Assembly: GCF_000328685.1 (NCBI RefSeq)
Contig: NC_019974.1
Location: 3,277,001 to 3,341,000, forward strand
Source: Natronococcus occultus SP4
GTDB taxonomy: Archaea > Halobacteriota > Halobacteria > Halobacteriales > Natrialbaceae
DNA length: 64,000 nucleotides
Direction: 5' to 3'
Shown: positions 28,899 to 50,539 of the stretch, piece by piece
Numbering within the stretch: position 1 is the first letter of the stretch
Layout: every line of letters begins with the position of its first letter
Translations under genes and position numbers: made by a program
Notes under the pieces: model-generated
Seen by the model: the letters and a program-made list of their open reading frames with translations, nothing else
Database searches by the model: none
What the model was told of the DNA's origin: nothing

Positions 28899-29867
28899 CT
28901 ATCCGAACTCCGTCCGGTACCAGGCGGCCGTCTCCGGAAGGTGGGCCTCGAGCGGGCGGTAGGTGTAGCCCAGTTCCTCGTGGGCCTTCCGGGAGGTGTA
29001 GAACAGCCGCTGGGTCGCGAGCCGAGCCATCCGGCGGTCGAAGGGGAACACGCGCCGACCGGTGGTGGCGTCGACGAGTTCGGCGACGGGACCCGCCGCG
29101 TGAATCGCAGTCGGCGGGACGGGCACCCGCGCGGGAGCGCCGTCGAGGGCGTCGCCGATCCGCGAGACGGCCCGGTCGTAGGTGAGGTTCTCGCCGCCGA
29201 GGATGTAGTGTTCGCCGCGCTCGCCGCGTTCGGCCGCGGCGACCAGCCCTGCGACGACGTCGTCGACGCCGACGATACTGAGTCCTCCGGGGAGGTAGGC
29301 CGGCATCGTCCGTTCGATCCCCATCGCGAGCAGCTGGGCGGTGAAGTTCCGATCACCGGGGCCGAAGATCGATGTCGGGTGCGTCGTCACCGCGTCGCCG
29401 GTTCGCTCGGCGTAGCGGTCGACGAGGCTCTCGGCTCGGGCTTTCGAGGCCTGATAGGCGCCGATCGGTTCGGCGACGTTGGTCTCGTCGGCGACGGGGT
29501 CGCTCCCGTTCGGACGGCGCGTCCCCGAGGTGCTCGTAAACACCACGCGCCCGGCGTCGGTCGCCGCACAGGCCTCGAGCAGGGTCGCGGTCCCGTCCCG
29601 GTTGACCCGGTGGACGGTCTCCGGGTCGGCGTTCCAGAGGCTCGCGCCCGCGAGGTGGAAGACGACGTCGGTGTCGTCGACCAGCGACTCGAGGACGCCC
29701 CGATCGAAGAGGTCGCCGACGTACCACTCGACGTCCTCGGGGTCGTCCCGACCGGGGCCCGAGCGGCTGAGCCCGCGGACCTCCCACCCCTCGGACCGGA
29801 GATGGTCACAGAGGTGGGTTCCCAGAAACCCCGTTGCGCCGGTGACTGCGGCGGTGTCCCCGGTCAT
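28899..29867 (-). CDS. NAD-dependent epimerase/dehydratase
   Basis: A 322-residue extended short-chain dehydrogenase. It starts with VTGATGFLGTHLCDHL (about residues 8-23), has VVFTSTSGTRRP and the active-site motif YQASK (about residue 145). Such enzymes epimerise or reduce NDP-sugars. Its start overlaps the DUF362 stop by 4 bases, so it is third in the Gfo/Idh-DUF362-epimerase operon, transcribed from an ATAACAAA promoter. The substrate is unknown. Confidence 0.85.
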   Translation of the reverse strand: MTGDTAAVTGATGFLGTHLCDHLRSEGWEVRGLSRSGPGRDDPEDVEWYVGDLFDRGVLESLVDDTDVVFHLAGASLWNADPETVHRVNRDGTATLLEACAATDAGRVVFTSTSGTRRPNGSDPVADETNVAEPIGAYQASKARAESLVDRYAERTGDAVTTHPTSIFGPGDRNFTAQLLAMGIERTMPAYLPGGLSIVGVDDVVAGLVAAAERGERGEHYILGGENLTYDRAVSRIGDALDGAPARVPVPPTAIHAAGPVAELVDATTGRRVFPFDRRMARLATQRLFYTSRKAHEELGYTYRPLEAHLPETAAWYRTEFG

Positions 29868-30784
29868 CGCTCGAGCTGGGGCGGGACGGCGTCGCCGCTG
29901 GTCGCCGCGTAGAGGCGGTAGGCAGTCGAGACGGCCGGATGGGTGTCCTCGGACGGCGGTAGTCGTCCGCCGGAGAGTCGCTCGCGGACCGCGTCGAGGT
30001 CGAGCTCGTCGAGGTTCTCGACGGCGACTGGACGGGTCGACTCGGGAACCAGTTCCGAGAGCGCCTCGTCGTCCCCGATCGCGCGACCGAGCAGGGAGGT
30101 GGCGACGGCGTCGACGGCCGGGGCCGACCCCGACAGCACCGCGTCGACCGCGGCGGGATCGTCCCCGTAGGCGACGACCCCGTCGAGGACGGCGAGGACG
30201 GGTTCGACCGCGCGGGTCACTGCGATCGCGATCCGTTCGGGTTCGGCGGTCGAGCGGACGAGTCGGGCGAGCGTTCGCGTCGCTCCGGCGACCATACCCT
30301 CGGCGGTCGGCCGCAGCGTCGGCACGACGATCGTCGGCGACTCGAGCAGCGGCTCCGGCACCGAGAGCGCGACCGATCGCCCTCCGGCGGATCGGTACTC
30401 GTTTCGTTTCGGGACGTCGGCCAGATCGACCAGCGCGGCCCCGACGCGCTCGGCCAGGCGGTCGTACCCCAGATACGACGCCGTCCGCTCGAACGCGATG
30501 CGGTCGTCGCTGCGCCCGAGGACGGCGACGTCGGCCCCGAGCTCGCGATCGAGCCACGCGGCGACCGCGCCGACGACCGCGGGATCGGTCACGACGCCCG
30601 TCGAGGGGTGGAACGGGTAGTGTGCGTCGGGCGCGATCGCGACCCGATCGGCGTCCTCGAGACGGTCTCGATGGGGAGCGAGGACGGTTCCGACGGCGTC
30701 CTCGAGGCGGGCCCGCCGGGTGTCGACGTCGGGCCGCCAGCCGCGGCCGTCGCGATCGACCGCGGCCAGGCGAACGGCGTTCAC
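29864..30784 (-). CDS. DUF362 domain protein
   Basis: A 306-residue protein matching DUF362, a family whose bacterial members often carry ferredoxin-like iron-sulfur domains. None is seen here, as there are almost no Cys residues. Recognisable parts are VAIAPDAHYPFHPSTGVVTD, the RSDDRIAFERTASYLGYDRL segment and VVPTLRPTAEG. It is flanked by, and overlaps by 4 bases, a Gfo/Idh oxidoreductase and an epimerase, a setting that suggests a role in sugar or glycan chemistry. The true reaction is unknown. Confidence 0.75.
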   Translation of the reverse strand: MNAVRLAAVDRDGRGWRPDVDTRRARLEDAVGTVLAPHRDRLEDADRVAIAPDAHYPFHPSTGVVTDPAVVGAVAAWLDRELGADVAVLGRSDDRIAFERTASYLGYDRLAERVGAALVDLADVPKRNEYRSAGGRSVALSVPEPLLESPTIVVPTLRPTAEGMVAGATRTLARLVRSTAEPERIAIAVTRAVEPVLAVLDGVVAYGDDPAAVDAVLSGSAPAVDAVATSLLGRAIGDDEALSELVPESTRPVAVENLDELDLDAVRERLSGGRLPPSEDTHPAVSTAYRLYAATSGDAVPPQLER

Positions 30785-31884
30785 GGGCGCACCTCCGGCA
30801 GCTCGATCTCGGTAGCTGTGGTCTCGGCTGCCAGATCGTACGCTCGCTCGGCGAGCGCGAGCGACCGCCGCCCATCGCGGCCGCTGACGGGCGGCTCCTC
30901 ACCGTTCCGGATCGCCCCGACGAAGTCCGCCAGCGCGTCGTAGTGGGCCTGCAGGTAGAACGTCGGCCCGAACACGGTTCGGTCGGCGGCGCCGACGCGG
31001 CTGGCGACGTTCTCGAGGGCGGCCCGGGCCGCGCTCGCATAGAAGTGCTCCGGGAGGTGCTCCTGGTTGGTGATCGTGCCCGTGATCCCCTCCAGGCGCA
31101 GCCGGGTGTTGACCTCGGGGAGCTCTTCCCACTGGTAGGAGCCACAGTGCAGCGTGACCGTCGTTCCCGTCTCGGGCGCGCGCAGCAGGACCGTCGCGGC
31201 GTCCTCGACGTCGATGTCGAGGGTGTGGCCCGTCGTCGCCGCGCGCACTTCTAGTTCGCCGAACAGCCACTCGAGGACGTCGAAACAGTGCACGCCGAGC
31301 TCGAGCAGGGAGCCGCCCCCGACGGCGTCGGAATCGAGCGGCCAGGAGGGGGGTGCGGCGTCGGCTGGGGGGCGCCCGAGCGGGCCGTCGTTGAGCCGGG
31401 TGATCGAGGCGTAGGGAACGTGACCGACGCTGCCGTCCTCGTAGGCCGACTTGACGCCGACCATGTCGGGCTGGTAGCGAAGCGTGTGGTCGACGCCGAC
31501 GGCGATCCCGGCCTGTGTCGCGGTCTCGAGCATCCGATCGGCTTCCTCCGTCGAACGGGCCAGGGGTTTCTCGACGAAAACGTCGACCCCGTGCTCGGCA
31601 GCTCGTTCGACGGCCTCCGCGTGGAGAAAGGGCGGGAGTGCGACGACGGCGACGTCGAGATCCTCGGCCGCGAGCAGCGCCGCGTAGTCGTCGTAGGTGC
31701 GCTCGACGCCGGCCCGTTCGGCCCGCTCGCGGTTCTCCGGAACCGCGTCCGCGGCCGCGACGACCGCGACGTCGGGCATCGCGAGCGCGGATTTCAGGTG
31801 CACCGTGCCGATGTTACCGACCCCGAGGACGCCGACCGAGAGCGCCCCGGAGTCGCTCGCTCGGCTGCGAAACTGTGAGAGCAT
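30781..31884 (-). CDS. Gfo/Idh/MocA oxidoreductase
   Basis: A 367-residue NAD(P)-dependent sugar oxidoreductase. It has the Rossmann motif GVLGVGNIGTVHLKSAL (about residues 18-34), VDVFVEKPLAR near 105-115 and VDHTLRYQPDM near 138. It is first in a three-gene operon with DUF362 and the epimerase. ATG 31884 lies 35 nt after an ATAACAAA element, which implies a leaderless start. It is probably an NDP-sugar dehydrogenase for glycan tailoring; the substrate is unproven. Confidence 0.85.
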   Translation of the reverse strand: MLSQFRSRASDSGALSVGVLGVGNIGTVHLKSALAMPDVAVVAAADAVPENRERAERAGVERTYDDYAALLAAEDLDVAVVALPPFLHAEAVERAAEHGVDVFVEKPLARSTEEADRMLETATQAGIAVGVDHTLRYQPDMVGVKSAYEDGSVGHVPYASITRLNDGPLGRPPADAAPPSWPLDSDAVGGGSLLELGVHCFDVLEWLFGELEVRAATTGHTLDIDVEDAATVLLRAPETGTTVTLHCGSYQWEELPEVNTRLRLEGITGTITNQEHLPEHFYASAARAALENVASRVGAADRTVFGPTFYLQAHYDALADFVGAIRNGEEPPVSGRDGRRSLALAERAYDLAAETTATEIELPEVRP

Positions 31885-33231: not shown

Positions 33232-34818
33232 ATGAGCCCATCTTCCACCCCATCGAAGCGAGCGTTCGTCCTCGGACTCGACGGCGTACCGTGGCGGCTG
33301 ATCGAGCGATGGAGCGACGCCGGCGAGCTCCCGAACTTCGCCCGCATGCGCGAGGAGGGAGCCTCCGGCGTCCTCGAGAGCACCCGTCCGCCGACGACGC
33401 CGCTCGCCTGGCCCTCGATCGCCACCGGCGTCTGGCCGGACAAACACGGGCTCTACGGCTTCCAGCGACTCTCGAGCGAGTACTCCCAGCGGATGTATAC
33501 GAGCCACGACCGGCGCCAGCCGGCCCTCTGGGACCAGCTCTCGCCGGCCCACGTCGGCAACGTTCCGATGACCTACCCGGCGAGCGAGCTCGACGGGACG
33601 ATGGTGACGGGGATGATGACTCCCTCGACCGAGCGGGAGTTTACCTATCCGCCCGAGCTCCGCGCGAAACTCGAAGAGCGGATCCCGGAGTATCGGATCA
33701 GCCTCGACTACCCAGACTACGCCGACCGCCTCGAGGCGTTCCCCGCCGCTGTCGACGACATGCTCTCGAAACGCCGCGAGCTGATGCGCCTCCAGATGGA
33801 GGAAGCCAGCGACGACTGGCAGCTGTTTTTCTTCGTCTACACGGCGCCCGACCGGTTCCAGCACCTCGTCTGGGAGATGGACCAGCTGCTCGAACACTAC
33901 AGGCGGCTCGACGAGATCCTCGGGGAGGTCATCGAGTACGCCGACGATCACGTCGCCGACCTCTATGTTGTCTCCGACCACGGGTTCGGGCCGATCGAGA
34001 CGCTCGTCTACGTCAACCGGATCCTCGAGCGCGAGGGGTATCTCTTCCGGCAGGAAAACGAGGGCACCCGCGGCGCGCTCGCGAGCCTGGGGATCTCCCG
34101 GGACACCATCACGAACACGCTCGAGCGGGTCGGCATCTCCGAGGACGTCCTCGTCTCGACGCTCCCCCGCCGGCTCGTCGACTCGGTCGCCGAGCAGATC
34201 CCCGGCGACCACGCCCTCTACGACGTCGACTACGAGCGTACCGTCGCGTTCGTCCACGGGGCGGGCAACTGTTACATCAACGACGCCGAGCGCTTCGAAC
34301 ACGGCGTCGTCGACCCCGGCGACGTCGAGCGGATCAAGGCCGAACTCGTCGACGTCTTCGAGTCCGTCACCGACGACGGCGACCGCGTCCTCGAGGTCTT
34401 CGACGGCGACGAGCTGTTTCCGACCGACGAGCGGTCGCCGGACCTGGTCGTCAACGGCACGGACGGCTATGACTCGCGAAACACCATCTCCGACGAGACG
34501 TTCGGCGAGACCGGGACCTACGCCGCCAGCCATCGCAGCAAGGGGATCGTGCTCTGTCGGGGCCCCTCGATCGACGCCGGGGCGACGCTGCGGGGTGCCC
34601 GCGTCGTCGATATCGCACCGACGCTGCTGCACGGGATCGGCGAGCCGATCCCCGAGAACACCGACGGCCGCGTCCTCTTCGACGCCTTCGACGAGCGGGC
34701 GACACCCTCGCGGACGAAAGTCGAGCGAACCGCGGTGTCGGGCGGCGACGGCGGCGAGGTCGAGGAGGACTTCTCCGACGTCGAGGACCGGCTGAAGGGG
34801 CTGGGTTACATGGAGTGA
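33232..34818 (+). CDS. AlkP-superfamily phosphodiesterase/nucleotide pyrophosphatase
   Basis: A 528-residue cytoplasmic protein of the type I phosphodiesterase family. FVLGLDGVPWRLI (about residue 11) holds the first metal Asp, TTPLAWPSIATGVWPDKHGL (about 60-79) the nucleophile region, FVYTAPDRFQHLVW the middle and VVSDHGFGPIE the second metal site; SHRSKGIVLCRG and EDRLKGLGY end it. It resembles the protein at 54468, including the C-terminal EDRL--LGY. The substrate could be a phosphorylated or nucleotide-linked glycan intermediate. No membrane anchor is seen. Confidence 0.82.
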   Translation: MSPSSTPSKRAFVLGLDGVPWRLIERWSDAGELPNFARMREEGASGVLESTRPPTTPLAWPSIATGVWPDKHGLYGFQRLSSEYSQRMYTSHDRRQPALWDQLSPAHVGNVPMTYPASELDGTMVTGMMTPSTEREFTYPPELRAKLEERIPEYRISLDYPDYADRLEAFPAAVDDMLSKRRELMRLQMEEASDDWQLFFFVYTAPDRFQHLVWEMDQLLEHYRRLDEILGEVIEYADDHVADLYVVSDHGFGPIETLVYVNRILEREGYLFRQENEGTRGALASLGISRDTITNTLERVGISEDVLVSTLPRRLVDSVAEQIPGDHALYDVDYERTVAFVHGAGNCYINDAERFEHGVVDPGDVERIKAELVDVFESVTDDGDRVLEVFDGDELFPTDERSPDLVVNGTDGYDSRNTISDETFGETGTYAASHRSKGIVLCRGPSIDAGATLRGARVVDIAPTLLHGIGEPIPENTDGRVLFDAFDERATPSRTKVERTAVSGGDGGEVEEDFSDVEDRLKGLGYME

Positions 34819-37793: not shown

Positions 37794-37934
37794 AATCTCT
37801 CGCTGCTCAAAGATAGCTCGGAGACGACGCCCGACACTCGCCGCGTGTGGCCTCTTCTCGAACTAGCCGGGCACAGCTTCGGATCCTGAAGCTGTGGCTC
37901 CGCGCCTTAGTGTACTGGTGTGGTTTCTCTTTGC

Positions 37935-38915
37935 ATGGCACGCTCGACGATCGACGGCGACTCCCGATCGGGGGTCGCCGACCGACTCCTGTACGGACGA
38001 ACCGACGCCCGTCTCCGCGCGGTCTGGCGGGTCCTCGCGCCGCTTGCAGTCGGCCTCGGGATCTACGTCCTCGCACACGCGGCGGTGGAACTGTACGGCG
38101 GCGACGTCCTCGCTCCGCTTGCCGATGAGTCGGCAGTCCTCGGTGCCGCGGTGATCTTCGCCGCGCTGGCGGTCGCAGTCGCCGCGGCCGGCCTCGCAGC
38201 ACTTGTCGTCGCCGCGAAACTCGATCGGCGTTCGATCGCCGACTACGGGTTCGACCGCTCCCGACGGTGGCGCCGGGACTTCCTCGCGGGCGCAGCGATC
38301 GGTGCCGCCGCGGGGCTCGGCACCGTCGGCTACCTGGCAGCGCGGGGATACGCGACCCTCACCGTCGAGCTCACGGGCGTCGGCGCCGACTCCGCGCTGG
38401 TCGGCACCGTTGTTCTCGTGGCGATGCTCGCTTTCCTCCTCGCGAACACCGCCTTCGAGGAGATCGTCTTCCGGGCGATCCTCGTCACGAACGCGGCCGA
38501 GGGCTTTCGCTCCCGATCCGTCGGCGCCGCGACAGCCGTCGTCGGCGCAGTCGCGGTCAGCGTCCCGGTGTTCGGCGCGTTGCATCTCCTCGGCGGCGGG
38601 ATCGGGGCCGTCGTTACGAGCGCGATCGGGGGGATCCTGTTCGCGGCCGCGTACGTTCTCACGGGGCGACTGGCGCTGCCGATCGGCGTCCACTTCGGCG
38701 GAATCGTCTTCGTCAGCGCCACCCAGTCGCCGCTGTCGGCCGAGCCGGAGCTCACCCTGCCGTCGCTCGTCGCGATCACGGACGTCCTCGAGCCGTCGCT
38801 GCTCGCCGGCGTCGAGCTGTGGCTCGTCAGGCTGGCGATCGGCCTCGCGCTCGTCTGCGTCTGGGTTCGGTTCGCCTACGGGAAGCTCTCGATCACCGAG
38901 CGAGTGATCTCCTGA
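37935..38915 (+). CDS. CPBP-family intramembrane metalloprotease
   Basis: A 326-residue polytopic membrane protein (about eight hydrophobic segments). The CPBP motifs are visible: EEIVFR (about residue 178), FGALHLLGGG (about 219) and HFGGIVF (about 255). CPBP proteins are the Rce1/CAAX-type protease family and are often of unknown substrate in prokaryotes. It is a single gene with a highly charged N-terminus of about 30 residues. Confidence 0.82.
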   Translation: MARSTIDGDSRSGVADRLLYGRTDARLRAVWRVLAPLAVGLGIYVLAHAAVELYGGDVLAPLADESAVLGAAVIFAALAVAVAAAGLAALVVAAKLDRRSIADYGFDRSRRWRRDFLAGAAIGAAAGLGTVGYLAARGYATLTVELTGVGADSALVGTVVLVAMLAFLLANTAFEEIVFRAILVTNAAEGFRSRSVGAATAVVGAVAVSVPVFGALHLLGGGIGAVVTSAIGGILFAAAYVLTGRLALPIGVHFGGIVFVSATQSPLSAEPELTLPSLVAITDVLEPSLLAGVELWLVRLAIGLALVCVWVRFAYGKLSITERVIS

Positions 38916-38921: not shown

Positions 38922-40229
38922 TCACCGATCGGAACGAACCAGCCTGAGCCCCGCCCTGGCCGCCGTCCAGGCGGGATACAGCCTGTTGTAGACGCTGCTG
39001 GGCGCGTTCCGGGCACCTGCACGGAGGAGGCGGTGGGACAGCGGCGGTCCCGACTCCGAGACGAGATCGTCGAGGTCGACGTCCTCGAGCCACTCGAAGA
39101 ACGCCCGTTCGGTCGCCGACTCGGGTTCGACCTCGCGGGCGCGCTCACGGATGTCTTCCCACATGTACCGCTCGTCCTGGCCCAGTACCCACTCGCCGTC
39201 CTCGAGAGCGACCCGGAGGCGCTCGTACTCGTGGTCGGCAAAGGAGTAGCCGTGGTCGGTCGGCTCGAGCCCCGCAAGCCGGAGGCCGACTGCGGTCCGG
39301 TAACACTTCTCACAGCGTCCGCAGTTACCGTCCATCCGAACGTTGCAGGTCTGGAGCTCGAGATCGGGGGCGTCGCTGCGGACGTAGTCGGCGAGGACGT
39401 CGAGTCGCTCCTGTCGGGTGAGCTCGTAGCCGTCGTGGTGACACCGGGTGCCGGCCCAGCGGACGCTGTCGTCGATATCGGGACGGGAGCCCCACTCGAG
39501 CTCGATCCCCTCCCAGTGGGTAGCGGCGACGTAGAGGTCTTCCATCCCGCGGGCGGCGGCCAGCGGGGCACAGAGCCCGAGCAGACCGAGCCCGTGGCCG
39601 ACGGAGCTGTACCAGGCGCCGTCGACGTAGCGCTTGTAGTGGGCAAGCAGCATGGGGTGATCGAGGAACGAAAGCATGTTCGACTCGAGGAAGGCCGTTT
39701 CGAGTCCCCGTTCTGCCGCGAACGCCTCGACGCGATCCGTGAGCTGGCGCCACTTCTCGTCGTCGTCGGGGTCGGGCGTGATCGTCCACCCGCGGATGCT
39801 GATCAACGTGGGCTCTTCCTCGCGGTGGCGGACGTACGAGCACGTCGAGTCGACGCCCCCCGTGAACAGCAGCCCGCTCTCGCCGTTCGCCGGCGGGTTG
39901 GGATCGATCGTTCGGCGGGCGTAGAGGGTCCCACCTTCCAGAAAGTCGTACATCCCGCAGAGAGTCTCCCGAACGTCTTCGAGCGCGCGGGCGAAGGTCG
40001 CGTCGACCTCCTCGACGTAGACGTCCGCGCCGCTGGCCCACGCGACGGGACAGACCTGCGCGAGGACGGGGATCGCCAGCACACCTTCGGGGACGTCCTC
40101 GATCGGGACGTCGTACTCGGTTCGGAACGGCTCGCCGGTCAGGAACCGCTCGAGGTCAGCGGTGGCACGCGCCTCGCACTCGAGGACGGTGCCGTCGGCG
40201 GTCGGCCGGTCGATGATGATGGCGCTCAT
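38922..40229 (-). CDS. QueC/ExsB-like PP-loop ATPase of unknown reaction
   Basis: A 435-residue cytoplasmic protein. The PP-loop LLFTGGVDSTCSYVRHREE lies at about residues 118-136, and a four-Cys zinc site CNVRMDGNCGRCEKC (C-x7-C-x2-C-x2-C) near 300-315, the same pattern as QueC-type ligases. It is longer than QueC (about 220-240 residues) and has extra N- and C-terminal domains. PP-loop enzymes activate a carbonyl or hydroxyl by adenylation. Its glycan-gene neighbourhood suggests modification of a sugar or lipid carrier (for example amidation or thiolation), but this is inference. The start is ATG 40229. Confidence 0.7.
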   Translation of the reverse strand: MSAIIIDRPTADGTVLECEARATADLERFLTGEPFRTEYDVPIEDVPEGVLAIPVLAQVCPVAWASGADVYVEEVDATFARALEDVRETLCGMYDFLEGGTLYARRTIDPNPPANGESGLLFTGGVDSTCSYVRHREEEPTLISIRGWTITPDPDDDEKWRQLTDRVEAFAAERGLETAFLESNMLSFLDHPMLLAHYKRYVDGAWYSSVGHGLGLLGLCAPLAAARGMEDLYVAATHWEGIELEWGSRPDIDDSVRWAGTRCHHDGYELTRQERLDVLADYVRSDAPDLELQTCNVRMDGNCGRCEKCYRTAVGLRLAGLEPTDHGYSFADHEYERLRVALEDGEWVLGQDERYMWEDIRERAREVEPESATERAFFEWLEDVDLDDLVSESGPPLSHRLLRAGARNAPSSVYNRLYPAWTAARAGLRLVRSDR

Positions 40230-40520: not shown

Positions 40521-40568
40521 ATGTGTACCGAGACACCACCGGGAGGCCGTCGGAGCGCGAACCGATGA
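40521..40568 (+). CDS. Candidate 15-residue leader ORF before the membrane protein
   Basis: MCTETPPGGRRSANR then TGA. The stop overlaps the ATG of the main gene (ATGA). It is the first start after the ATAACAAA element. Confidence 0.35.
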   Translation: MCTETPPGGRRSANR

Positions 40569-42361
40569 GCCGGCGCGTCCTCGACTGGCTGTTCGCCGTC
40601 GGCTTTCTCGCGCTCGCGGCCGGAATCGCACTCGCGCGTGCGTCCCCCGCAAGGACGTACGAGGCCTCGGTCTATGCCGGAACGCCGACGCCGGTCTGGA
40701 TCGGGGTCGCGCTCGCGCTGGCGATCGCGGTCGCGACGGCGCTTACCTGTCGCGGTCGCGAGCAGGCGGTCGGGATCGGTCTCGGAGCGACCGCGGTGAC
40801 CACGATCGTGAGTCTGCCGGTAGTTCGGGGGTATCACTTCTACGGGATGGGCGACGCGCTCTCGCATCTGGGCTGGACCAGGGACATCGTCGAGGGCGAG
40901 ATGGCGGCCTACGAGCTGTTTTACCCCGCCGTTCACTCGCTGGGCTCGCTCTTTTACGTTCTCGGGGGGATCCCGATCGAGCGCGGGTTGCTCTTCGCGC
41001 TCGTGGTCACGTTCGTCCCGTTCTTGCTTTTCGTCCCGCTCGTCGTGCGTGATCTGAGCGGGAACGGTCTCGCGGTCGGCGTCGCGGCGATCGTCTCCTG
41101 GATGGTGTTACCGATCAACAACATCGCGACCCACATGGGCGTCCACACGAACTCGAACGCGCTGTTTCTCGTCCCCGTCGTCGTCTTCGCCGTCGTCGCC
41201 TACCTGCGCCGTCGCGCGACGATCGAGCGGCTCCCCTTCGGCCTGTCGCCGTTTAGCGTCCTCGTCTATCTCTCGGCGATCACGCTCCTGCTCGTCCACC
41301 CCCAGCAGATGGTCAACGTCGTCGTCCTCGTCGCGGCGATCAGCGCCCTCCAGTGGATCGTGAGTCGACGGAGCGTCGATCACCCGATGCTCGAACAGCC
41401 GACGCTGCACACCCAGACGGTCGTCCTCGGGACGATCTTCGGCGCCTGGGCGGTGACCAACCAGCGGTTTCGCGACGCCGCCGAGGGGTTCGTCACCGGG
41501 ATCTTCGCGGCAGACGTCGGCGCGGGCGAGGAGATCGACCAGCAGGGGGGATCGCTCACCGAGATCGGCGGGAGCCTCGCGGAGCTGTTCGTGACGATGT
41601 TTCTCGACGCCGCGGTCGTCGGCCTGCTCGTCGGCTGTTTCCTGCTGTTGGTCCTGCTCGGACGAACGCGACTGGACACGGAGGGGCGCGCGCTCGTCAC
41701 CTACTTCGTCGCCGCGCTCGTCCCGCTGGGCGGCATGTTCTTGCTGTACTTCCTCGGAACCCCGAACATGGCGTTCCGGCAGATGGGCTTTATTTACGTC
41801 GTGTTGACGATCCTCGCCGGCGTCGCGATCGCACACGGGCTCGGCGGGCTCTCGCGGTTCGTTTCACGCCCGGGCGCGACCGGCGTCGCGGCGGTAGTGC
41901 TCGGTGCCTGTCTCGTCCTCGGGCTGTTGACCGTCTTTGCCTCGCCGATCATCTACAGCCCCGGACAGCACGTCTCCGAGTCGACGTTCAACGGGTACGA
42001 GACCGGGATGGACCACGGCGTCGGGGACAGACCGTACGCGGGTATCGGGTACGATCCGTACCGGTTCGATCACGGAATCAACGGGCTCGAGGGTGAGGAG
42101 TCGCTGACGGCGGGAACCGCAGCGAGTGGCGAACTCGACGCCGAGGCGTTCAACGAGGGTGAGTACGGCGGTGCATACAACGACGCCGACCACTACCTCG
42201 TCGTTACCGCCTTCGACGAGACCCGCGAGTTCGACGTCTACCAGGGGCTGCGTTACGAGGAAGCCGCCTACCGTGGCCTCGCCTACGACCCGACCGCAGA
42301 CCGGGTGATCTCGAGCGACGACTTCCGGATGTACGACGTCACGGGTGACGGGGAGGAGTAG
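40565..42361 (+). CDS. Polytopic membrane protein, GT-C-like
   Basis: A 598-residue protein with about 11-13 membrane segments in the first 470 residues and a soluble C-terminal domain of about 130 residues (DRPYAGIGYDPYRFDHGING, ADHYLVVTAFDETREFDVYQ). Near residue 97 the loop YHFYGMGDALSHLGWTRDIV has acidic residues in the first extracytoplasmic loop, as in GT-C glycosyltransferases and oligosaccharyltransferase-like proteins. I do not recognise a named family. An ATAACAAA promoter and neighbours suggest a role in exporting or transferring a surface glycan. Confidence 0.7.
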   Translation: MSRRVLDWLFAVGFLALAAGIALARASPARTYEASVYAGTPTPVWIGVALALAIAVATALTCRGREQAVGIGLGATAVTTIVSLPVVRGYHFYGMGDALSHLGWTRDIVEGEMAAYELFYPAVHSLGSLFYVLGGIPIERGLLFALVVTFVPFLLFVPLVVRDLSGNGLAVGVAAIVSWMVLPINNIATHMGVHTNSNALFLVPVVVFAVVAYLRRRATIERLPFGLSPFSVLVYLSAITLLLVHPQQMVNVVVLVAAISALQWIVSRRSVDHPMLEQPTLHTQTVVLGTIFGAWAVTNQRFRDAAEGFVTGIFAADVGAGEEIDQQGGSLTEIGGSLAELFVTMFLDAAVVGLLVGCFLLLVLLGRTRLDTEGRALVTYFVAALVPLGGMFLLYFLGTPNMAFRQMGFIYVVLTILAGVAIAHGLGGLSRFVSRPGATGVAAVVLGACLVLGLLTVFASPIIYSPGQHVSESTFNGYETGMDHGVGDRPYAGIGYDPYRFDHGINGLEGEESLTAGTAASGELDAEAFNEGEYGGAYNDADHYLVVTAFDETREFDVYQGLRYEEAAYRGLAYDPTADRVISSDDFRMYDVTGDGEE

Positions 42362-42692
42362 CGCGCAGGACGTCCTCGTCGAACGCCGACCGCGCCGATA
42401 ATCCTCCCTTGCTGGCCGAGTAACGACCGTCGGTGTGACGATCCGTTCCGAACGCCACGATTACTCGATCGAATTAGGTCGGCGCCGTCCCCGGAAACGG
42501 CTCCCTTATCGCGACAACTCAATGCTAACCGTCGTCCTCGCGATACAGAGTCCACCAGAATACTTTCGTAAGTTCGTGAACGGTACTCCATACATTCTGA
42601 CCATATCTGTGCTGTCACCAATATTCTCTGTAGATTTAACCCAAGATAACAAGAAAAGGTTTATGGGTCGTAAGGACAGGTTACGAAACTGT
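42362..42692. other. Non-coding region, AT-rich in its second half
   Basis: About 330 bases between the membrane protein and the first beta-helix gene. The second half is AT-rich compared with surroundings and holds TTTATGG at about 42660, 33 nt before ATG 42693. It also has a near-match ATAACAAG at 42646, with spacing unlike the other elements. No gene is seen. Confidence 0.5.
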
Positions 42693-43631
42693 ATGGCGCA
42701 GAATCCCCGTACGGCCGATGCGAGTAACACGACGAATACCGGCAGTAAGAAGTCGTTAACGCGTCGTAACTACGTGCAGTCGCTCGCAGCGGTCGCCACG
42801 GCAGCGGTCTCGGTTGGTGCAACGGGCACCGCCGCTGCCGACGAGGAGTACGAGGTTATCGAAGCCGACGGCCAGACCGTCACGATCAGCGACGGCGAGA
42901 CCTGGGAGAACAAGCTGATCGACATGACCACCGGCGGTGATATCATCATCAACGCCGAGGGGACCGACTGGACGATCCGCAACGTCGGGTTCCACGGCGA
43001 GAACACCTCCGGTGCCGGCTCCGCGACGTTCGGCGTTGCCGACACGGGCGGGGGAACGAGCACCGTCGAGAACGTCTACCTCGGTGACGGCTCGGACGGT
43101 CGAAACGGCTCCGGAACCGGGCACGGCCAGACCGCCTTCTGGGTCAACCCCGACCACTCCGGTCACATCGACTTCCAGAACCTCAACATCCAGGGGTTCG
43201 CCGACAACGCGATCTATGCCTCCGCGCCCGGAAACGGCGGGGGCGGCACCGTCCACATCGACAGCTGCTTCGCCGCGAACTGTTACGTCTCCCACTTCCG
43301 GATCGCCACCGAAGGGAGCCGCGTCACGAACTCGAGCGTGCTGGTCGACCAGGACGGCTTCGAGGGTCGCGGCATCTGGGCGTGGGCGCCCGGGACCGTC
43401 GAGGTCGAGGGCTGCCAGATCGAGATGAACGGCGCGAACACGGCGATCGACGCCGGCGCGAACGGGAACGGAACGGACGTCGTCGTGAGCAACACCGACT
43501 ACGACGAGGGGGCGGGGGTTGCCGAACACGACGGCTCGACGGTCCAGCTCGAGGACGACGTCGGCACCGATCCCGAGGCGTTCGTGCCCGAGGGCGTCCC
43601 GAGGAGTGCCGAAGAGGCGGCCGGCGAGTAA
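42693..43631 (+). CDS. Tat-exported right-handed beta-helix protein
   Basis: A 312-residue secreted protein. The Tat signal reads SLTRRNYVQSLAAVATAAVS and ends near ATGTAAADEEYEV. The mature part is a right-handed parallel beta-helix with repeating short strands (TIRNVGFHGENTSG, GHIDFQNLNIQG, NTAIDAGANGNG). Such folds bind or cut polysaccharides, as in pectate-lyase-like proteins. No catalytic residues are certain. It is paralogous to the gene at 44037 (both have EEYEVIEA, TIRNVGF, ENVYLGDG). The start is taken from the TATA spacing. Confidence 0.82.
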   Translation: MAQNPRTADASNTTNTGSKKSLTRRNYVQSLAAVATAAVSVGATGTAAADEEYEVIEADGQTVTISDGETWENKLIDMTTGGDIIINAEGTDWTIRNVGFHGENTSGAGSATFGVADTGGGTSTVENVYLGDGSDGRNGSGTGHGQTAFWVNPDHSGHIDFQNLNIQGFADNAIYASAPGNGGGGTVHIDSCFAANCYVSHFRIATEGSRVTNSSVLVDQDGFEGRGIWAWAPGTVEVEGCQIEMNGANTAIDAGANGNGTDVVVSNTDYDEGAGVAEHDGSTVQLEDDVGTDPEAFVPEGVPRSAEEAAGE

Positions 43632-43958: not shown

Positions 43959-44036
43959 CTCCGATTGAGTGTCTGTTAATTTTAGACAAGCTAGAAGAGA
44001 AACTTTATACCGGTAGTGTGGAATTACTCGGTTGCA

Positions 44037-45782
44037 ATGGCACGCGAACCTTCGGTACTTGATACGGAGCGGTTCGGCGGTGACGGCGACGAGCCGTCGG
44101 AAACGGGCAGTAATACCGGATTACTGGATCGACGGAGCTACATGAAACTGGCCGGAGCGACCGCCGCTGCGGCTGCCTTCACTGGCACTGCGAGCGGTGA
44201 CGAGGAGTACGAGGTCATCGAGGCCAGCGGCCAGACGATCCAGATCGGCGAGGGCGAGACCTTCGAGAACACGCTGATCGACGTCTCGACCGGGAACGGA
44301 ATCCTGCTGAACGTCACCGGCTCCGGCGCCACGATCCGAAACGTCGGCTTCTCGGGGCTCTATCAGGGTGGAGACTTCGCGATCACGATCAACGTCCCGT
44401 CCGGCGACGTCCTCGTCGAGAACGTCTACCTCGGCGACGGTGCGAACAAAAGCGGCGCGAGCTTCGTTCACGGACCCGGCGCGATCTTCCTGCACCGGGA
44501 CAGTAACGCCGACGTGACCTTCCGGAACTGCAACGTTCAGGGATGGCCCAACAACGGCTTCTACTGTTCGAACACGGCCAACGGCGGCAGCGTTCGCTTC
44601 GAGTCCTGTTACGGCAAGAACAACGGCGTCTCGACGTTCCGAGCAGCGAGCGCCGAGGACGTCATCGTCGACTGTGTCGCGTACAACGACGACACCGACT
44701 ACTCCACCGAGAACGGGAGCTGGGGCGGGTACACCGAACAGCACGGCCGTCCCGTCTGGGCCTGGTCGCCCGGTCCGGTGACGATCGAGAACTCGGAGTT
44801 CGCGGCCGGCCCGTACGCCGCGGCACTGCTCACCCACGAGGGCGGAACGATCGACTTCCGGTCGGGCGCCTACAGCGGCGACACCCAGGGCCAGGTCCAG
44901 CTCGGCGACGTCACCAACGGTCCCGCCCTCTCGGTTCCCGAGGGCGTTCCGACCTCCGCGGAAGAGGCCGCGTCCGGAGGGAGATCAAGACGTTCACCGG
45001 ACCCCGCGACCGACGAGGAGACCGAGCTGCCGACCGAGATCCGCTTCGAGGGCGAGGACTCGACCGCGACCCGCTACGAGTTCGCCGTCGACGGCGAGGT
45101 CGCCCCCGCGGGCGAGGACCCGATCGACGACGGGACGGTCCACGGAATCGTCGGCAACTGGACGGACGTGTTCCGGTTCGACGGCGACCTCGAGCTCGTC
45201 ACCGCCGACGGGCCGGCCGCAGTGGTCCTCGACGGGGAGGCGGTTGATCCCGACGAGTACGGGCCGGCGCTCCCCCACGTCCTCGAGGTCGAGGGGACCG
45301 GCGAGCCCGCGAGCTACGAGATTACGGTCGACGGCACGATCGAGGCCGCCGACGAGGCCGACGCGCCCTCCACGTCGGGCTCGACCGTGCAGGATTCGGT
45401 GACCGACGACAGCCAGCGGTTCCGGTACTCGGGGGTGCTCACCGACGTCACGTTCACCGAGGGCGAAGCGCGCGTCCTCGTCGACGGCGGGGAGGTCGAC
45501 CCCGACGAGTACGGCGACCAGGAGCTGCTCTCCCACGCACTGGTGATCGACGGTACGGAGGCCGACGGGCCGAGCACGTACTCGTTTACGATCGACGGCG
45601 AGGTCGTCAAATCGGAGTACCGCGACGCCTCGATCGACGACGGAGACGTCATCGAGGGCGCGACGGTTCGGGGCAGCGTCGCCGACTGGATCGACGCCTA
45701 CTGGTTCGAGGGCGAGATCACGGCGTTCCAGCTCGACGGCGACGCCGACGTCGACGTCCAGTACAACGCCCGCAATCAGTGA
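44037..45782 (+). CDS. Tat-exported beta-helix protein with three C-terminal repeat domains
   Basis: A 581-residue secreted protein. The Tat signal is LDRRSYMKLAGATAAAAAFT. Residues about 50-315 are a right-handed beta-helix paralogous to the protein at 42693. From about residue 335 come three repeats of about 80 residues, each with a YEF/SFTIDGEV-like strand, a DDG---G-V--W or similar turn, and VDPDEYG in two of them. A linker rich in Glu/Asp joins the parts. The repeats may be a surface- or glycan-binding module. A TTTATACC element lies 35 nt before the start. Confidence 0.82.
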   Translation: MAREPSVLDTERFGGDGDEPSETGSNTGLLDRRSYMKLAGATAAAAAFTGTASGDEEYEVIEASGQTIQIGEGETFENTLIDVSTGNGILLNVTGSGATIRNVGFSGLYQGGDFAITINVPSGDVLVENVYLGDGANKSGASFVHGPGAIFLHRDSNADVTFRNCNVQGWPNNGFYCSNTANGGSVRFESCYGKNNGVSTFRAASAEDVIVDCVAYNDDTDYSTENGSWGGYTEQHGRPVWAWSPGPVTIENSEFAAGPYAAALLTHEGGTIDFRSGAYSGDTQGQVQLGDVTNGPALSVPEGVPTSAEEAASGGRSRRSPDPATDEETELPTEIRFEGEDSTATRYEFAVDGEVAPAGEDPIDDGTVHGIVGNWTDVFRFDGDLELVTADGPAAVVLDGEAVDPDEYGPALPHVLEVEGTGEPASYEITVDGTIEAADEADAPSTSGSTVQDSVTDDSQRFRYSGVLTDVTFTEGEARVLVDGGEVDPDEYGDQELLSHALVIDGTEADGPSTYSFTIDGEVVKSEYRDASIDDGDVIEGATVRGSVADWIDAYWFEGEITAFQLDGDADVDVQYNARNQ

Positions 45783-46700: not shown

Positions 46701-47311
46701 GTAGTCGTCCGGTCGGTCGGCCTGTCGCGCCGACAGCGACCGCTGTCGATTCGGGGGGGACGTTGCGATCACGATTGACACACCAGGTTGTACGCCAACA
46801 CTGATTCTCTTAAGCACAACTACGTTTCGCACCGTCTGCAAAGTCCGGACGGAGCGGCGACCGATCGGTCGCCGCGGCGCTTTCGAGAACCGACAGCAGG
46901 CGGCCCGATCCGCTTGCCCGAGCACGCGTGGTATCGATCGATTGGCGACCTGTAGTGACCACGTACACCGAGCGAAGGGATGTCGACGGTGAAGACGAGT
47001 AGGTCGGTAACGCGACACTGGATCCAACCCTTCGACTGCAAGTCTATAAAGTCGACCGACGGTTCGAACGCGCAAACGGGGGTTACAGAATGAACGTGGG
47101 ATTTACCATCTGTCCCCGGCGAAACGATAGAATCGGCACGGTTTCGGCGAACGCGCCCTCCGGCCCGCCACCGTTGCGACAACCAGTATCGTCAGTTGAC
47201 GTCCCTCGAGGGCCGCCGTTGTCGTCGTCGCGAATCCACAGTCGGGCGAGTCGGTCGGCGAGCCGCCGGTGGATTCGCGGGGGGTGGGACCGAGCCGAAT
47301 CAGTAAGTCGC

Positions 47312-47327
47312 GGTTTCTCGCGAAACC
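47312..47327. promoter_or_regulatory. Near-palindrome upstream of tfb
   Basis: GGTTTCTCGCGAAACC, with its near end 44 bases before the tfb start. It is a likely binding site for the same regulator as the site at 46683. Confidence 0.55.
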
Positions 47328-47370
47328 ATGTGAACCCCTTACAGTGTCGGGACGGCTTCTCTCGGTACTG

Positions 47371-48330
47371 ATGACGCGGTCCATCATCGATCACGCCAGA
47401 GCTGAATCGGAGTCGCGCGGTCGAGAGGCAGGCCTGTGTCCCGACTGCGAAACCGAGACGATCGTCCACGATCCGGACCGCGGCGAGCGGGTCTGTGAGG
47501 AGTGTGGACTCGTGTTGACCGAGGACCCGATCGACTACGGGCCGGAGTGGCGGGCGTTCAACGCACAGGAACACGACGAGCTCTCGCGGGTCGGCGCGCC
47601 GCTGACCCAGTCGATGCACGACCGCGGACTGACGACGACGATCGACTGGCGCAACCGCGACGCCAACGGCCACTCGATGTCGGCCGACAAGCACGGTCAG
47701 CTCCACCGGCTCCGGGTCTGGCAGGAGCGCATCCGGACGAAAAACGCCGGCGAACGAAACCTCAAGTACGCACTCTCGGAGATCGATCGGATGGTCAGCG
47801 CCCTCGGGGTTCCGAAACCCGTCAAGGAGACCGCCAGCGTCATCTACCGCCAGGCGCTCGACCAGGACCTCATTCGGGGGCGCTCGATCGAGGGCGTCGC
47901 GACCAGTGCTCTCTACACCGCCTGTCGAAAGGAGGGCATTCCGCGCAGCCTCGAGGAGGTGACGGCCGTCTCCCGGGTCGACCAGCGCGAGATCGGGCGC
48001 ACCTACCGCTACGTCGCCGACGAACTCGACATCAACCTCGAGCCGACCAACCCCCGCCAGTTCGTTCCGCGGTTCTGCTCGGAGCTCGACGTCGACAAGG
48101 ACGTCGAGTCGAAGGCGATCGAGATCATCGATGAGACGACGAATCAGGGGCTTCACTCCGGCAAGTCGCCCACGGGGTTCGCGGCCGCGGCCATCTACGC
48201 CGCAGGGTTGCTCTGCGAGGAGACGATCCCCCAGCGGGCGGTCGCCGACACGGCACAGACGACCGTCGTCACCGTCAGAAACCGGTACCGCGAGCAGCTC
48301 GAGGCTATCGACCAGCAGCCGGCTACATGA
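47371..48330 (+). CDS. tfb: Transcription initiation factor IIB
   Basis: A 319-residue archaeal TFB. The N-terminal zinc ribbon CPDCETETIVHDPDRGERVC has its second pair in CEECG (about residues 23-45). The B-finger/linker region GPEWRAFNAQEHDELSRVGA is followed by two cyclin-like repeats (about 120-205 and 215-305; YTACRKEGIPRSLEEV, IYAAGLLCEETIPQRAVA). TFB binds TBP-TATA/BRE and recruits RNA polymerase. Haloarchaea have several TFBs with distinct promoter preferences. The start is ATG 47371. Confidence 0.95.
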   Translation: MTRSIIDHARAESESRGREAGLCPDCETETIVHDPDRGERVCEECGLVLTEDPIDYGPEWRAFNAQEHDELSRVGAPLTQSMHDRGLTTTIDWRNRDANGHSMSADKHGQLHRLRVWQERIRTKNAGERNLKYALSEIDRMVSALGVPKPVKETASVIYRQALDQDLIRGRSIEGVATSALYTACRKEGIPRSLEEVTAVSRVDQREIGRTYRYVADELDINLEPTNPRQFVPRFCSELDVDKDVESKAIEIIDETTNQGLHSGKSPTGFAAAAIYAAGLLCEETIPQRAVADTAQTTVVTVRNRYREQLEAIDQQPAT

Positions 48331-48499
48331 TCGACCGCTCGTTCTCGCTGTAGACGTCGTCGTCCAGCAACGCGTGGAGGTTCTCGTAGGGGACGAACGC
48401 GACAAACTCGTCGTCGGCGTTGTACAGCTCGAGGCCGTCGTCGGTTCGGTCGTACCGTTCGCAGACGACCTGTCCCTCGGGCAGAATCGCGCGGAACAT
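48323..48499 (-). CDS. 58-residue conserved-looking acidic protein
   Basis: Starts MFRAILPEGQVVCERYDRTD and continues with DGLELYNADDEFVAFVPYEN. The composition is protein-like and it resembles small haloarchaeal proteins I cannot name exactly. Its 3' end overlaps the tfb 3' end by 8 bases in the convergent orientation. Confidence 0.6.
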   Translation of the reverse strand: MFRAILPEGQVVCERYDRTDDGLELYNADDEFVAFVPYENLHALLDDDVYSENERSIM

Positions 48500-48598
48500 G
48501 CGGCGTGTATTACGGTGTCAATCCGCATATAGTGTGGGGACCGGTTCGGGGCCGCGTCGAACGCAACCGGTTTATCCGCACTCCTGCTAGGCCCGCCA

Positions 48599-50539
48599 GT
48601 GACCGACGACTCCTCGAGCGACGCCGACGATCGCACCGAGCGCGAGGTGACCGACGAAACGGACGACGCCCCGAGCAGCGCAGCCGACGAAGCGTCGACC
48701 GATTCGGAGCCGACGCCTCTCGAGGACGACGAGCCGACGATCGCGGAGTTCCACGACGCCTCCCAGCGGGAGGGGACCCCGGTACTCACCGCGGCCGCGG
48801 TCGCCCGTGCCCTCGAAATTCCCCACGAAGACGCGAGCGAACGGCTGGAACTCCTCGCCGACCGGGGCGAACTCGAGCGCCTCTCGGTGTCGACGGATCC
48901 CGTCGTCTGGTACCCGAGCGAGTTCGAGGACCTCACGGACCGCGAGCGGGTCGTCGTCTTCCCGAAGCGCCGCGAGATCGTCGTCGATCGGCCCGATCAG
49001 TTCACGCGGGCGCAGCTCTCGCAGTTCGCCCACCTCGCCGACGCCAACGGCGAGCAGGGATACCGCTACGTCGTCCGACCCGAGGACGTCTGGGGAACGC
49101 CCCACGACTCCTTCGAGGAGCTGGCCCGAACGATGCGCCAGGCGCTCGGCCAGCGCAACGAGGATCTCGAGGACTGGGTCGAGAGCCAGTGGGATCGGGC
49201 CCACCAGTTCCGGCTGACGACTCACGAGGACGGCTACACCGTCCTCGAGGCCCAGACCCCGGAGATCATGGGCAACGTCGCCCGCCAGAAGTTAGACGAG
49301 GAACACGTCCACGCGCCGATCTCCGAGACCGAGGACTGGGTCCGCGAGGGATCCGAGGCCGCGATCAAACGCATTCTGTACGAGGCGGGCTACCCGGTCC
49401 AGGACCACCGCGAGCTCGAGTCCGGCGAGGAACTCGAGATCGACCTCGAGGTCTCGCTGCGGGAGTACCAACACGAGTGGGTCGATCGGTTCGCCGAGGC
49501 CGGCGAGGGCGTGTTCGTCGGCCCGCCGGGCAGCGGGAAGACCGTCGCCGCGATGGGGGCGATGGCCCACGTCGGCGGCGAGACCCTCGTCCTCGTCCCG
49601 AGTCGCGATCTGGCCCGCCAGTGGGCCGAGACGATCGCCGAGTACACCTCGCTTTCCCCCCACCAGATCGGCCAGTACCACGGCGGCCAGAAGAACGTGC
49701 GGCCGGTGACGATCGCGACCTACCAGATCGCGGGGATGGATCGCCACCGCTCGCTGTTCGACGACCGCGAGTGGGGACTCGTCGTGTTCGACGAGTGCCA
49801 GCACGTTCCCTCGGACGTCTATCGTCGCAGCACGCACCTCCAGTCTCGACACCGCCTGGGCCTGTCAGCGAGCCCGATCCGCGAGGACGACCGCCAGACA
49901 GAGATCTTCACGCTGGTCGGCCCGCCGATCGGCACCGACTGGGAGGCGCTGTTCGACGCCGGCTTCGTCGCCGAGCCCGAACTCGAGATCCGCTACGTCC
50001 CGTGGGGCGACGAGGAGCAGCAGAACGCCTACGGCTCCGCCGAGGGCCGCGAAAAGTACCGCATCGCGGCTCAGAATCGCGGAAAGATCGACGAGATCCG
50101 ATACCTGCTGTCGGCCCATCCGGGCGCGAAGTCGCTGGTCTTCGTCGACTACTTGGAGCAGGGTCGAGAGCTCGCCGCGGCGCTCGACGTCCCCTTCCTC
50201 AGCGGGGAGACGCCCCACCACGAGCGGCGCCGGCTGCTCGAGGAGTTCCGCCGGGACGAACGCGACCTGCTGGTGATCTCCCGGGTCGGCGACGAGGGGA
50301 TCGACCTCCCGACCGCGGACATGGCGATCGTCGCCTCCGGGCTCGGGGGCTCGCGCCGACAGGGAACCCAGCGGGCCGGCCGCACGATGCGACCCGCGGG
50401 CGGGGCGCTCGTCTACGTGCTCGCTACCCGCGGCACCCGAGAGGAGGAGTTCGCTCGCCGACAGCTCCAGCACCTGGGTCGGAAGGGGATCACGGTCCGC
50501 GAGCAGAACGTCGACGCGGCGGGAACCGACGAGGAGTAG
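48599..50539 (+). CDS. XPB/Rad25-like DNA helicase
   Basis: A 646-residue SF2 helicase. An acidic N-terminus (residues 1-60) leads to a helical domain, then the helicase core: VGPPGSGKTVAAMGA (Walker A, about residue 302), VVFDECQHVPSDVY (about 398), LGLSASPIREDDRQ (about 423), SLVFVDYLEQG (about 514) and QRAGRTMRPAGG (about 590). XPB-like helicases work in nucleotide excision repair or transcription-coupled repair in archaea. The GTG start at 48599 follows TTTATCC at leaderless distance. Confidence 0.88.
   Translation: MTDDSSSDADDRTEREVTDETDDAPSSAADEASTDSEPTPLEDDEPTIAEFHDASQREGTPVLTAAAVARALEIPHEDASERLELLADRGELERLSVSTDPVVWYPSEFEDLTDRERVVVFPKRREIVVDRPDQFTRAQLSQFAHLADANGEQGYRYVVRPEDVWGTPHDSFEELARTMRQALGQRNEDLEDWVESQWDRAHQFRLTTHEDGYTVLEAQTPEIMGNVARQKLDEEHVHAPISETEDWVREGSEAAIKRILYEAGYPVQDHRELESGEELEIDLEVSLREYQHEWVDRFAEAGEGVFVGPPGSGKTVAAMGAMAHVGGETLVLVPSRDLARQWAETIAEYTSLSPHQIGQYHGGQKNVRPVTIATYQIAGMDRHRSLFDDREWGLVVFDECQHVPSDVYRRSTHLQSRHRLGLSASPIREDDRQTEIFTLVGPPIGTDWEALFDAGFVAEPELEIRYVPWGDEEQQNAYGSAEGREKYRIAAQNRGKIDEIRYLLSAHPGAKSLVFVDYLEQGRELAAALDVPFLSGETPHHERRRLLEEFRRDERDLLVISRVGDEGIDLPTADMAIVASGLGGSRRQGTQRAGRTMRPAGGALVYVLATRGTREEEFARRQLQHLGRKGITVREQNVDAAGTDEE

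Follow-up and report, generated by a model that had tools for sequence, protein, structure and literature searches.

QueC-type enzymes and a proposed role in the amidation of surface sugars

Two roles are known for enzymes of the QueC fold: synthesis of a tRNA base and, described from 2025 onwards, the tagging of immunity proteins. Nitrogen is put on surface sugars, e.g., by WbpS/AsnB-type amidotransferases, built on an asparagine-synthase scaffold with a glutaminase domain, and by the PP-loop ATPase family of the N-acetyl-sugar amidotransferases WbpG/PseA, the partners of WbpG being HisH and HisF. In the first half-reaction of QueC (7-cyano-7-deazaguanine synthase, PF06508; PDB 3bl5, 2pg3), a carboxylate activated with ATP is converted into an amide with ammonia (PMC13279940, PMC13329287); Cap9 of type IV CBASS (PDB 9nto) employs the same activation, its amine being a protein N-terminus (PMC11996544, PMC13279940). 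The outcome is described as variable among asparagine-synthase-like and QueC-type enzymes: amide, nitrile, or lactam (PMC13060819). In QueC and Cap9, the deazaguanine base is read by a Tyr and an Asp of the YPDC motif, and QatC of the qatABCD anti-phage defence (PDB 9y01, 9y02) has two Thr in their place (PMC13279940). Residues Y35, R99, Y131, and Y189 are given as essential in E. coli QueC (PMC13329287). As to surface sugars, a wbpS/asnB gene directly downstream of wbpE and wzx is reported as needed for uronamide formation (PMC7468200).

The accessible text of a 2026 survey of PF06508 makes no mention of polysaccharide, glycan, or flippase, and WbpG figures there in one cluster; the protein considered below lies beneath the detection level of the PF06508 profile used for that survey. 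A literature search retrieved no described polysaccharide-linked relative of QueC, a weak negative given the few subscription journals covered.

A QueC-like gene of Natronococcus occultus

The DNA analysed (hereafter, the window) is a stretch of 64,000 nucleotides of Natronococcus occultus SP4 (contig NC_019974.1, positions 3,277,001 to 3,341,000 of the forward strand). The gene in question and its features are as follows:

38922-40229, minus strand: QueC-like PP-loop ATPase gene, 435 aa from ATG (translation, model, homologue searches)
39903-40229, minus strand: N-terminal extension domain, residues 1-109, absent from QueC (AlphaFold, alignment)
39846-39863, minus strand: PP-loop TGGVDS, residues 123-128 (read in the translation)
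39480-39497, minus strand: E245-W-G-S-R-P250, at the place of the QueC substrate motif YPDC, without its Tyr and Asp (hand-anchored)
39303-39347, minus strand: four-cysteine, putatively zinc-binding site C295/C303/C306/C309 (C-x7-C-x2-C-x2-C, residues 295-309; zinc by analogy with QueC/QatC)
38925-39242, minus strand: C-terminal helical extension, about residues 330-435, beyond the QueC core (AlphaFold)

The TGGVDS loop and the C-x7-C-x2-C-x2-C site are present exactly as originally predicted, and of 342 frames in the 64-kb window that run from stop to stop for 100 aa or more, 38922-40229 alone combines both motifs. The predicted near-doubling of length is likewise borne out (435 aa against a QueC median of about 222 aa; PMC13329287); the excess over QueC consists of N- and C-terminal extensions, as in QatC. 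A single-sequence search with the protein gave zero Pfam or NCBIfam matches even at E 10, and a search of PDB sequences returned one irrelevant weak match and nothing else. Its nearest named relatives in the tree are Natronococcus proteins.

Fold and structural relatives

The AlphaFold2 model, built with 26 aligned haloarchaeal sequences, reached a pLDDT of 91.2 and a pTM of 0.88, its confidence dropping past about residue 390 in the C-terminal extension. Foldseek placed QatC first (E 1.2e-6) and QueC next (4.6e-4). In VIA-align comparisons, the model matched QatC with Z 14.8 (rmsd 4.8 over 297 residues, model residues 1-381), QueC with Z 12.3 (rmsd 3.4, 186 residues), Cap9 with Z 10.3 (rmsd 3.4, 170 residues), and LarE with Z 10.0, other PP-loop enzymes being lower; QatC and QueC thus score above the field of other PP-loop enzymes. 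The TM-score to QatC is only 0.38 over the full length, which speaks for kinship of the core and not for close similarity. Profile-profile comparison with 14 canonical QueC proteins aligned 119-335 (E 3.5e-6 for a single comparison, probability 88) and with QatC a short stretch only, and the family profile run against PDB sequences found just QueC 2pg3 (E 0.24). The SGGxDS-type loop lies between a strand and a helix of a Rossmann-like core, as in the PP-loop superfamily, and a site of the QueC type, C(x)8CxxCxxC, follows the core, with x7 in this protein. Judging from the model and the sequence, the protein belongs to the PP-loop ATP-pyrophosphatase superfamily and, within it, to the QueC superfamily.

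The N-terminal domain folded alone gave a pLDDT of 96.4; Foldseek then returned zero matches under E 0.03, and VIA gave Z of at most 5.5 with unrelated chains, mostly RNase H-type domains, with no QatC row. These Z values are below the stated noise level; hence, no fold kinship is claimed for this domain.

QatC, the best structural match, shares with the protein a QueC core with what may be comparable N- and C-terminal extensions, a length of about 430 aa, the PP-loop, the four cysteines, and the replacement of the deazaguanine Tyr/Asp. The two differ in the zinc motif (CEKCxRT here, CGxCxxRR in QatC), the QatC profile (NF041925/PDLC02214) gave 0 matches to the window protein at its cut-off, and, unlike for QatC, no qat genes were seen among the annotated neighbours (five records) or the Pfam-scanned neighbour clusters, a scan limited by QatB having no Pfam model (PMC13329287). 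Cap9 has a QueC-like core as well; unlike the window protein, it keeps the deazaguanine Tyr/Asp and is of minimal length (PMC13329287), its chain of about 185 aa comparing with 435 aa here, and no CD-NTase partner was found among the annotated or Pfam-scanned neighbours.

Among the enzymes acting on surface sugars, WbpS/WbqG/AsnB would resemble the family in forming a uronic-acid amide at the expense of ATP, with the gene beside wzx (PMC7468200), but the window protein starts M-S-A and has no Pfam match, so the N-terminal glutaminase with its Cys nucleophile, typical of the WbpS/AsnB type, is absent. WbpG/PseA are similar as a PP-loop ATPase family; their CxxC(x)6CxC and the core motifs are arranged in reverse order (PMC13329287), whereas the four cysteines of the window protein follow the core.

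A further protein of this kind was noticed on the Priestia plasmid that carries a family member: a DUF6395 protein (L033:18585-19901, minus strand) contains SGGVDS and a C-terminal C-x11-C-x2-C-x2-C, so that DUF6395 (PF19932) appears to be a further PP-loop family of the QueC type. The PF19932 model matches only residues 231-403 of it. Unlike the window family, DUF6395 is a separate Pfam family; its profile was weakly touched by 6 of 24 relatives (best E 0.023), and a literature search on it found no paper.

Separation from canonical QueC

The host genome encodes a separate canonical QueC (C1:889788-890414, E 1.7e-75), and a strong canonical QueC (E below 1e-60) was found in 12 of the 24 carrier genomes searched. 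While sharing with QueC the core fold, the SGGxDS-type loop, and the C-x7-9-C-x2-C-x2-C site, the window protein is twice as long, below Pfam detection, and not beside que genes. Neither PF06508 nor TIGR00364 reached its cut-off with the window protein (0 matches at E up to 10); PF06508 was touched by 8 of 24 relatives with a best E of 0.0011, three of them scoring 12.0, 14.2, and 15.9 bits at a cut-off of 22.

At the place of YPDC the family reads xWGS, with Tyr at 245 or Asp at 247 in none of the 127 unique relatives; this register (EWGSRP/YPDC) was set by hand on Pro250 and the start of a model helix, the profile alignment having put a gap there. YPDC is intact in all 14 canonical QueC controls (L140, L146-L157, L167). 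The loss of the deazaguanine-reading Tyr/Asp throughout the family fits a different substrate. The places of VPxRN and YxQxHxxE, also positioned by hand, differ too (V-G/Q-H-G and G-W/A), Y35, R99, and Y131 of E. coli QueC have no counterpart in the hand-placed alignment, and the residue after the first zinc Cys (Y189 in E. coli) is Tyr in only 23 of 127 relatives.

Replacement of a missing QueC by the flavobacterial members was considered and rejected, since most sampled Flavobacteriaceae lack both: a strong QueC (E below 1e-30) occurs in 2 and the window-gene family in 7 of 120 genomes, with one additional weak partial match. QueD-family genes were present in 9 of 9 flavobacterial carriers checked, despite the near-absence of canonical QueC. 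In the search for QueE-like genes, carriers matched TIGR03365 at about 1e-19, but our own QueE profile found nothing in three regions surrounding matches of this kind, two from Flavobacteriaceae and one from Geothrix. That the protein is simply a canonical QueC or archaeosine enzyme is extremely improbable, the shared PP-loop and four-cysteine motifs being outweighed by the separate QueC of the same genome, the missing YPDC Tyr/Asp, the absence of que neighbours, and the fact that in Flavobacteriaceae the two genes are not exchanged for each other.

Conservation within the family

In the alignment, the PP motif is found in 127 of 127 unique relatives, as is the Cys at each of the four cysteine columns, the first spacing of which is 7 in 66, 8 in 29, and 9 in 27 of them. 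The PP motif and the four-cysteine site are under selection. Invariant in all 127 are also R272, P222, and D76, the last in the N-terminal domain; W206 (126), T312 (126), E307 (124), G247 (120), and S248 (119) come close, together with P47, P54, W64, and F79 of the N-terminal domain. No conserved Cys outside the four-cysteine site appears in the listed alignment columns. The last residue of the PP-loop is Ser in 99, Ala in 27, and Gly in 1 of the 127 relatives; SGGVDA instead of SGGxDS was seen in 27 members, 26 of them bacterial (among L060-L138).

Distribution and tree

A family match was found in 104 of 391 genomes of the class sample; as read off the match listing, these comprise 92 of the 101 genomes from Natrialbaceae, the family of the host, and 12 of the 290 from elsewhere in the class. 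In the phylum sample, the count is 23 of 392; plasmid records add Priestia and Pseudobutyrivibrio as carriers. A scan of named genomes gave 148 relatives, of which 80 were retained, from Cohnella, a metagenome-assembled genome (MAG) of a soil Bacillota, many Flavobacteriaceae, Geothrix, Natrialbaceae, and Haloarculaceae. The family hence spans haloarchaea, Bacillota, Flavobacteriaceae, and one acidobacterium. In a quick tree of the 127 unique proteins, the haloarchaeal members group together (support 83), as do Flavobacteriaceae with Geothrix (99) and Cohnella with Priestia (92); the deep joins are uncertain because long branches meet there.

The search of phage records gave no match. IMG/VR held nine relatives, of which only L246 (IMGVR_UViG_3300025735_000053) is clearly close (38% identity over 360 residues); this contig is classed as viral and could be host DNA. 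Another contig, L100, is titled an Algicola MAG and filed under Pseudomonadota by the tree tool; its protein is almost identical to Allomuricauda members, and it is probably a mislabelled flavobacterium. A second family copy occurs in the same locus in L033, L060, L065, L041, L079, L127, and L139 (Priestia, Cohnella, and Halosimplex among them), as if two related reactions or a heteromer were involved.

Genomic neighbourhood

The neighbours of the gene in the window are as follows:

26212-27540, minus strand: DUF354/glycosyltransferase-4-like protein (Pfam)
27503-28480, plus strand: GT4 (Pfam)
29864-30784, minus strand: DUF362 protein, conserved island, neighbour cluster 11 (Pfam)
30781-31884, minus strand: Gfo/Idh/MocA oxidoreductase, conserved island, cluster 6 (Pfam)
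33232-34818, plus strand: phosphodiesterase/alkaline-phosphatase-type protein, conserved island, cluster 5 (Pfam)
37920-38915, plus strand: convergent Rce1/CPBP-like membrane protease, 6 bp from the gene stop
40565-42361 (scanned as 40523-42361), plus strand: divergent membrane protein, distantly DUF6541-like (25.5 bits, Pfam cut-off 29)
42435-43631, plus strand: protein with a Tat-like signal by eye and no Pfam match; cluster 2, recurs in the same place
44016-45782, plus strand: protein with a beta-helix match of low significance (E 0.0086, short of the cut-off); cluster 3, also recurrent at this position

The gene had been predicted to lie next to surface-glycan genes and not beside those for queuosine or archaeosine. 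Both parts hold in the window: Pfam recognises the distant DUF6541, Gfo/Idh, phosphodiesterase, DUF362, GT4-type, and DUF354 proteins within about 15 kb, and there is no queC, queD, or queE within about 10 kb. The gene is oriented against its direct neighbours, and the Rce1/CPBP-like protease gene (37920-38915) stands outside the recurring neighbour clusters. The island is flanked at 47269-50539 by a TFB transcription factor gene with an XPB-type helicase gene beside it; TFB and a 198-aa gene recur beside the island in many Natrialbaceae. At 16006-23310 lies another glycan block, whose genes include DUF1616, hexapeptide transferase, DegT aminotransferase, Gfo/Idh, and GT2.

Across the family, the survey of homologs was clearly negative for the archaeosine or queuosine neighbours that would have spoken against the prediction: queC, queD, and queE were near none of 105 loci (30 bacterial, 75 haloarchaeal) and likewise none of the 101 non-redundant ones. 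Canonical queC loci passed through the same scan gave QueC in 14 of 14, QueE in 13 of 14, and QueD in 6 of 14, so the QueD profile is the least sensitive. The 6-kb locus L108 was left out before counting, and the duplicates L042, L043, L044, and L052 were left out of the non-redundant counts.

The genes found instead are those of glycan assembly. The 21 Flavobacteriaceae loci contain a pyruvyl-transferase-family gene in 21, a Wzx-like flippase in 20, GT4 in 20, an NAD-epimerase in 19, and a UDP-Glc/GDP-Man-type dehydrogenase in 18; the five Cohnella loci, pyruvyl-transferase, flippase, and GT4 in 5 each, NAD-epimerase in 2, and the dehydrogenase in 3; the four loci of Priestia, Pseudobutyrivibrio, soil Bacillota, and Geothrix, pyruvyl-transferase in 2, flippase in 2, GT4 in 3, and NAD-epimerase and dehydrogenase in 1 each. 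The 71 non-redundant haloarchaeal loci have the DUF6541-like gene in 48, Gfo/Idh in 38, GT4 in 37, NAD-epimerase in 33, flippase in 15, sugar dehydrogenase in 10, and pyruvyl-transferase in 0. These statistics are weighted toward the many close Flavobacteriaceae and Natrialbaceae. Control windows were taken from the host genome (20) and from ten bacterial carrier genomes (19, of 20 kb each): the bacterial ones contained flippase in 2, NAD-epimerase in 2, and otherwise 0, including pyruvyl-transferase, GT4, and dehydrogenase, and the host ones GT4 in 1, NAD-epimerase in 2, Gfo/Idh in 1, and otherwise 0, a comparison that favours the loci, since the neighbour profiles were built from the loci's own clusters.

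The gene order flippase - family gene - pyruvyl-transferase-family gene is nearly fixed in Flavobacteriaceae, with gaps of 0-155 bp to the flippase and 0-87 bp to the pyruvyl-transferase gene, and in Cohnella the gap to the flippase is 0-56 bp in 5 of 5 loci; such short gaps imply one operon. In Natrialbaceae, the family gene mostly faces the DUF6541-like gene, the commonest haloarchaeal neighbour (in 46 of 70 haloarchaeal loci no more than 1.5 kb away), and two recurring genes come next; on the other side there are often phosphodiesterase, polysaccharide deacetylase, Gfo/Idh, DUF362, and epimerase genes. Five annotated records agree, showing glycosyltransferases, flippases, polysaccharide deacetylase, and pyruvyl transferases. 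The family, so far without a name, is a widely distributed branch of the QueC superfamily with ties to surface-glycan operons, and the prediction of a QueC-like fold with a non-QueC role in a glycan context is well supported by the model, the structure search, the neighbourhood, and the residues.

A candidate function in polysaccharide assembly

With its fold, family, conservation, and operon context computed, the family probably spends ATP on attaching an amide-type group to a sugar, an activity that QueC-type enzymes have not so far been assigned. The foremost reading, held tentatively, is that of an ATP-dependent ligase of surface-polysaccharide assembly turning a sugar carboxylate, probably of a uronic acid, into an amide. 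ATP bound at TGGVDS would activate the carboxylate as an acyl-adenylate with release of PPi, ammonia or an amine would attack the latter to give the amide and AMP, and the four-cysteine site would carry a structural zinc; the retained PP-loop and four-cysteine site argue for this QueC class of chemistry, and the lost base-reading residues for a different acid. UDP-Glc/GDP-Man-type dehydrogenases make uronic acids. Because the gene lies between a flippase and sugar genes, and dehydrogenases of this type accompany it in most bacterial loci, the simplest candidate for the acid is a sugar carboxylate. The likeliest substrate, at the level of a guess from context, would be a uronic acid carboxylate in a nucleotide- or lipid-linked sugar or repeat unit prior to flipping; the product, guessed in the same way, would be a uronamide, i.e., the job done by WbpS with an asparagine-synthase-type scaffold.

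Several findings count against the uronamide. A sugar dehydrogenase accompanies only 10 of the 71 haloarchaeal loci, a GT4-type match is missing from 34 of the 71 scanned stretches, SGGVDA replaces the usual loop in 27 of 127 relatives, and the window gene is opposed to its direct neighbours. Polysaccharide loci also often carry uronic-acid genes whatever else they encode. Beyond the loop and the zinc site, residues essential to QueC are not retained, and its second step, perhaps also its first, may therefore differ here; with Y35, R99, and Y131 lacking a counterpart, even the amide step is uncertain. A Pfam search of the window protein found no glutaminase domain to supply ammonia.

The wall polymer of Natronococcus occultus is polyglutamine. 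Its wall is reported to contain L-glutamate (PMC10897055). Amidation of a poly-gamma-glutamate wall polymer was dropped as the main reading, because CapC has no match in the host genome and family members occur in bacteria as well.

Alternative readings

The adenylation and the glycan role may be as proposed and the partner larger than ammonia, an amine or amino acid being joined to a sugar carboxylate or an acid to an amino sugar. QueC relatives are described as accepting bulky amines, e.g., a protein N-terminus in Cap9 (PMC11996544, PMC13279940); DegT aminotransferases and hexapeptide transferases, typical of amino-sugar chemistry, occur in the clusters, and the paired copies per locus in Priestia, Cohnella, and Halosimplex would fit two acceptors. 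No dedicated amino-acid activation or carrier gene was recognised among the recurring neighbours, however, and such a ligation appears rather unlikely. Taken jointly, the two amide readings, amidation of a sugar carboxylate or amide ligation in glycan assembly, are fairly probable.

Conjugation of 7-carboxy-7-deazaguanine to a glycan amine or a partner protein, in the manner of Cap9, is disfavoured as improbable. The fold match to Cap9 and QatC agrees with it, as do QueD-family genes in 22 of 24 carrier genomes and QueE-like matches in 14 of 15, but the base-reading Tyr/Asp are absent in 127 of 127 relatives, no que genes lie nearby, and, of ten gene clusters checked, no neighbour cluster typically begins with MG, the QatB acceptor motif (starts from a simple gene-caller).

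It is very doubtful that the family performs both steps of QueC, so that a surface-polysaccharide sugar receives a nitrile, or that it joins the activated acid of such a sugar to an unusual amine. An equally slight chance is given to sulfur transfer, in which the cysteines would hold a cluster or a persulfide and yield a thio-sugar, as TtuA or LarE yield thio-compounds. The PP-loop thiolases TtuA, MnmA, and LarE are in the structure list at Z 8-10, yet QatC and QueC score higher, the Cys spacing and position are those of QueC, and the listed alignment columns hold no extra conserved Cys. The original prediction had proposed that the protein amidates or thiolates a sugar or a lipid carrier; sugar amidation, we infer, stands as a class of chemistry, whereas neither thiolation nor a lipid carrier received specific support.

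Surface islands are hot spots, which, along with QatC being the nearest solved structure, would suit an anti-phage protein of the Qat kind that is located in them by chance. Such a role is highly improbable, as the window protein has no PADLOC match, only 1 of 24 relatives matches QatC (E 0.00084), the gene has a fixed place in glycan operons across phyla, and 92 of 101 host-family genomes carry it, unlike a patchy defence gene.

Significance for the family

If the amide reading is true, the QueC-type core with its four-cysteine site would gain another job, in archaeal and bacterial surface polysaccharides, and a testable function would fall to a gene that has no name although nine in ten sampled Natrialbaceae genomes carry it. 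Should the nitrile or unusual-amine version hold, the unnamed QueC-fold family would represent a new class of glycan decoration common to archaea and bacteria. Together with QatC, the family provides a second natural QueC-like enzyme without the deazaguanine-reading residues, and this bears on the role of QatC itself.
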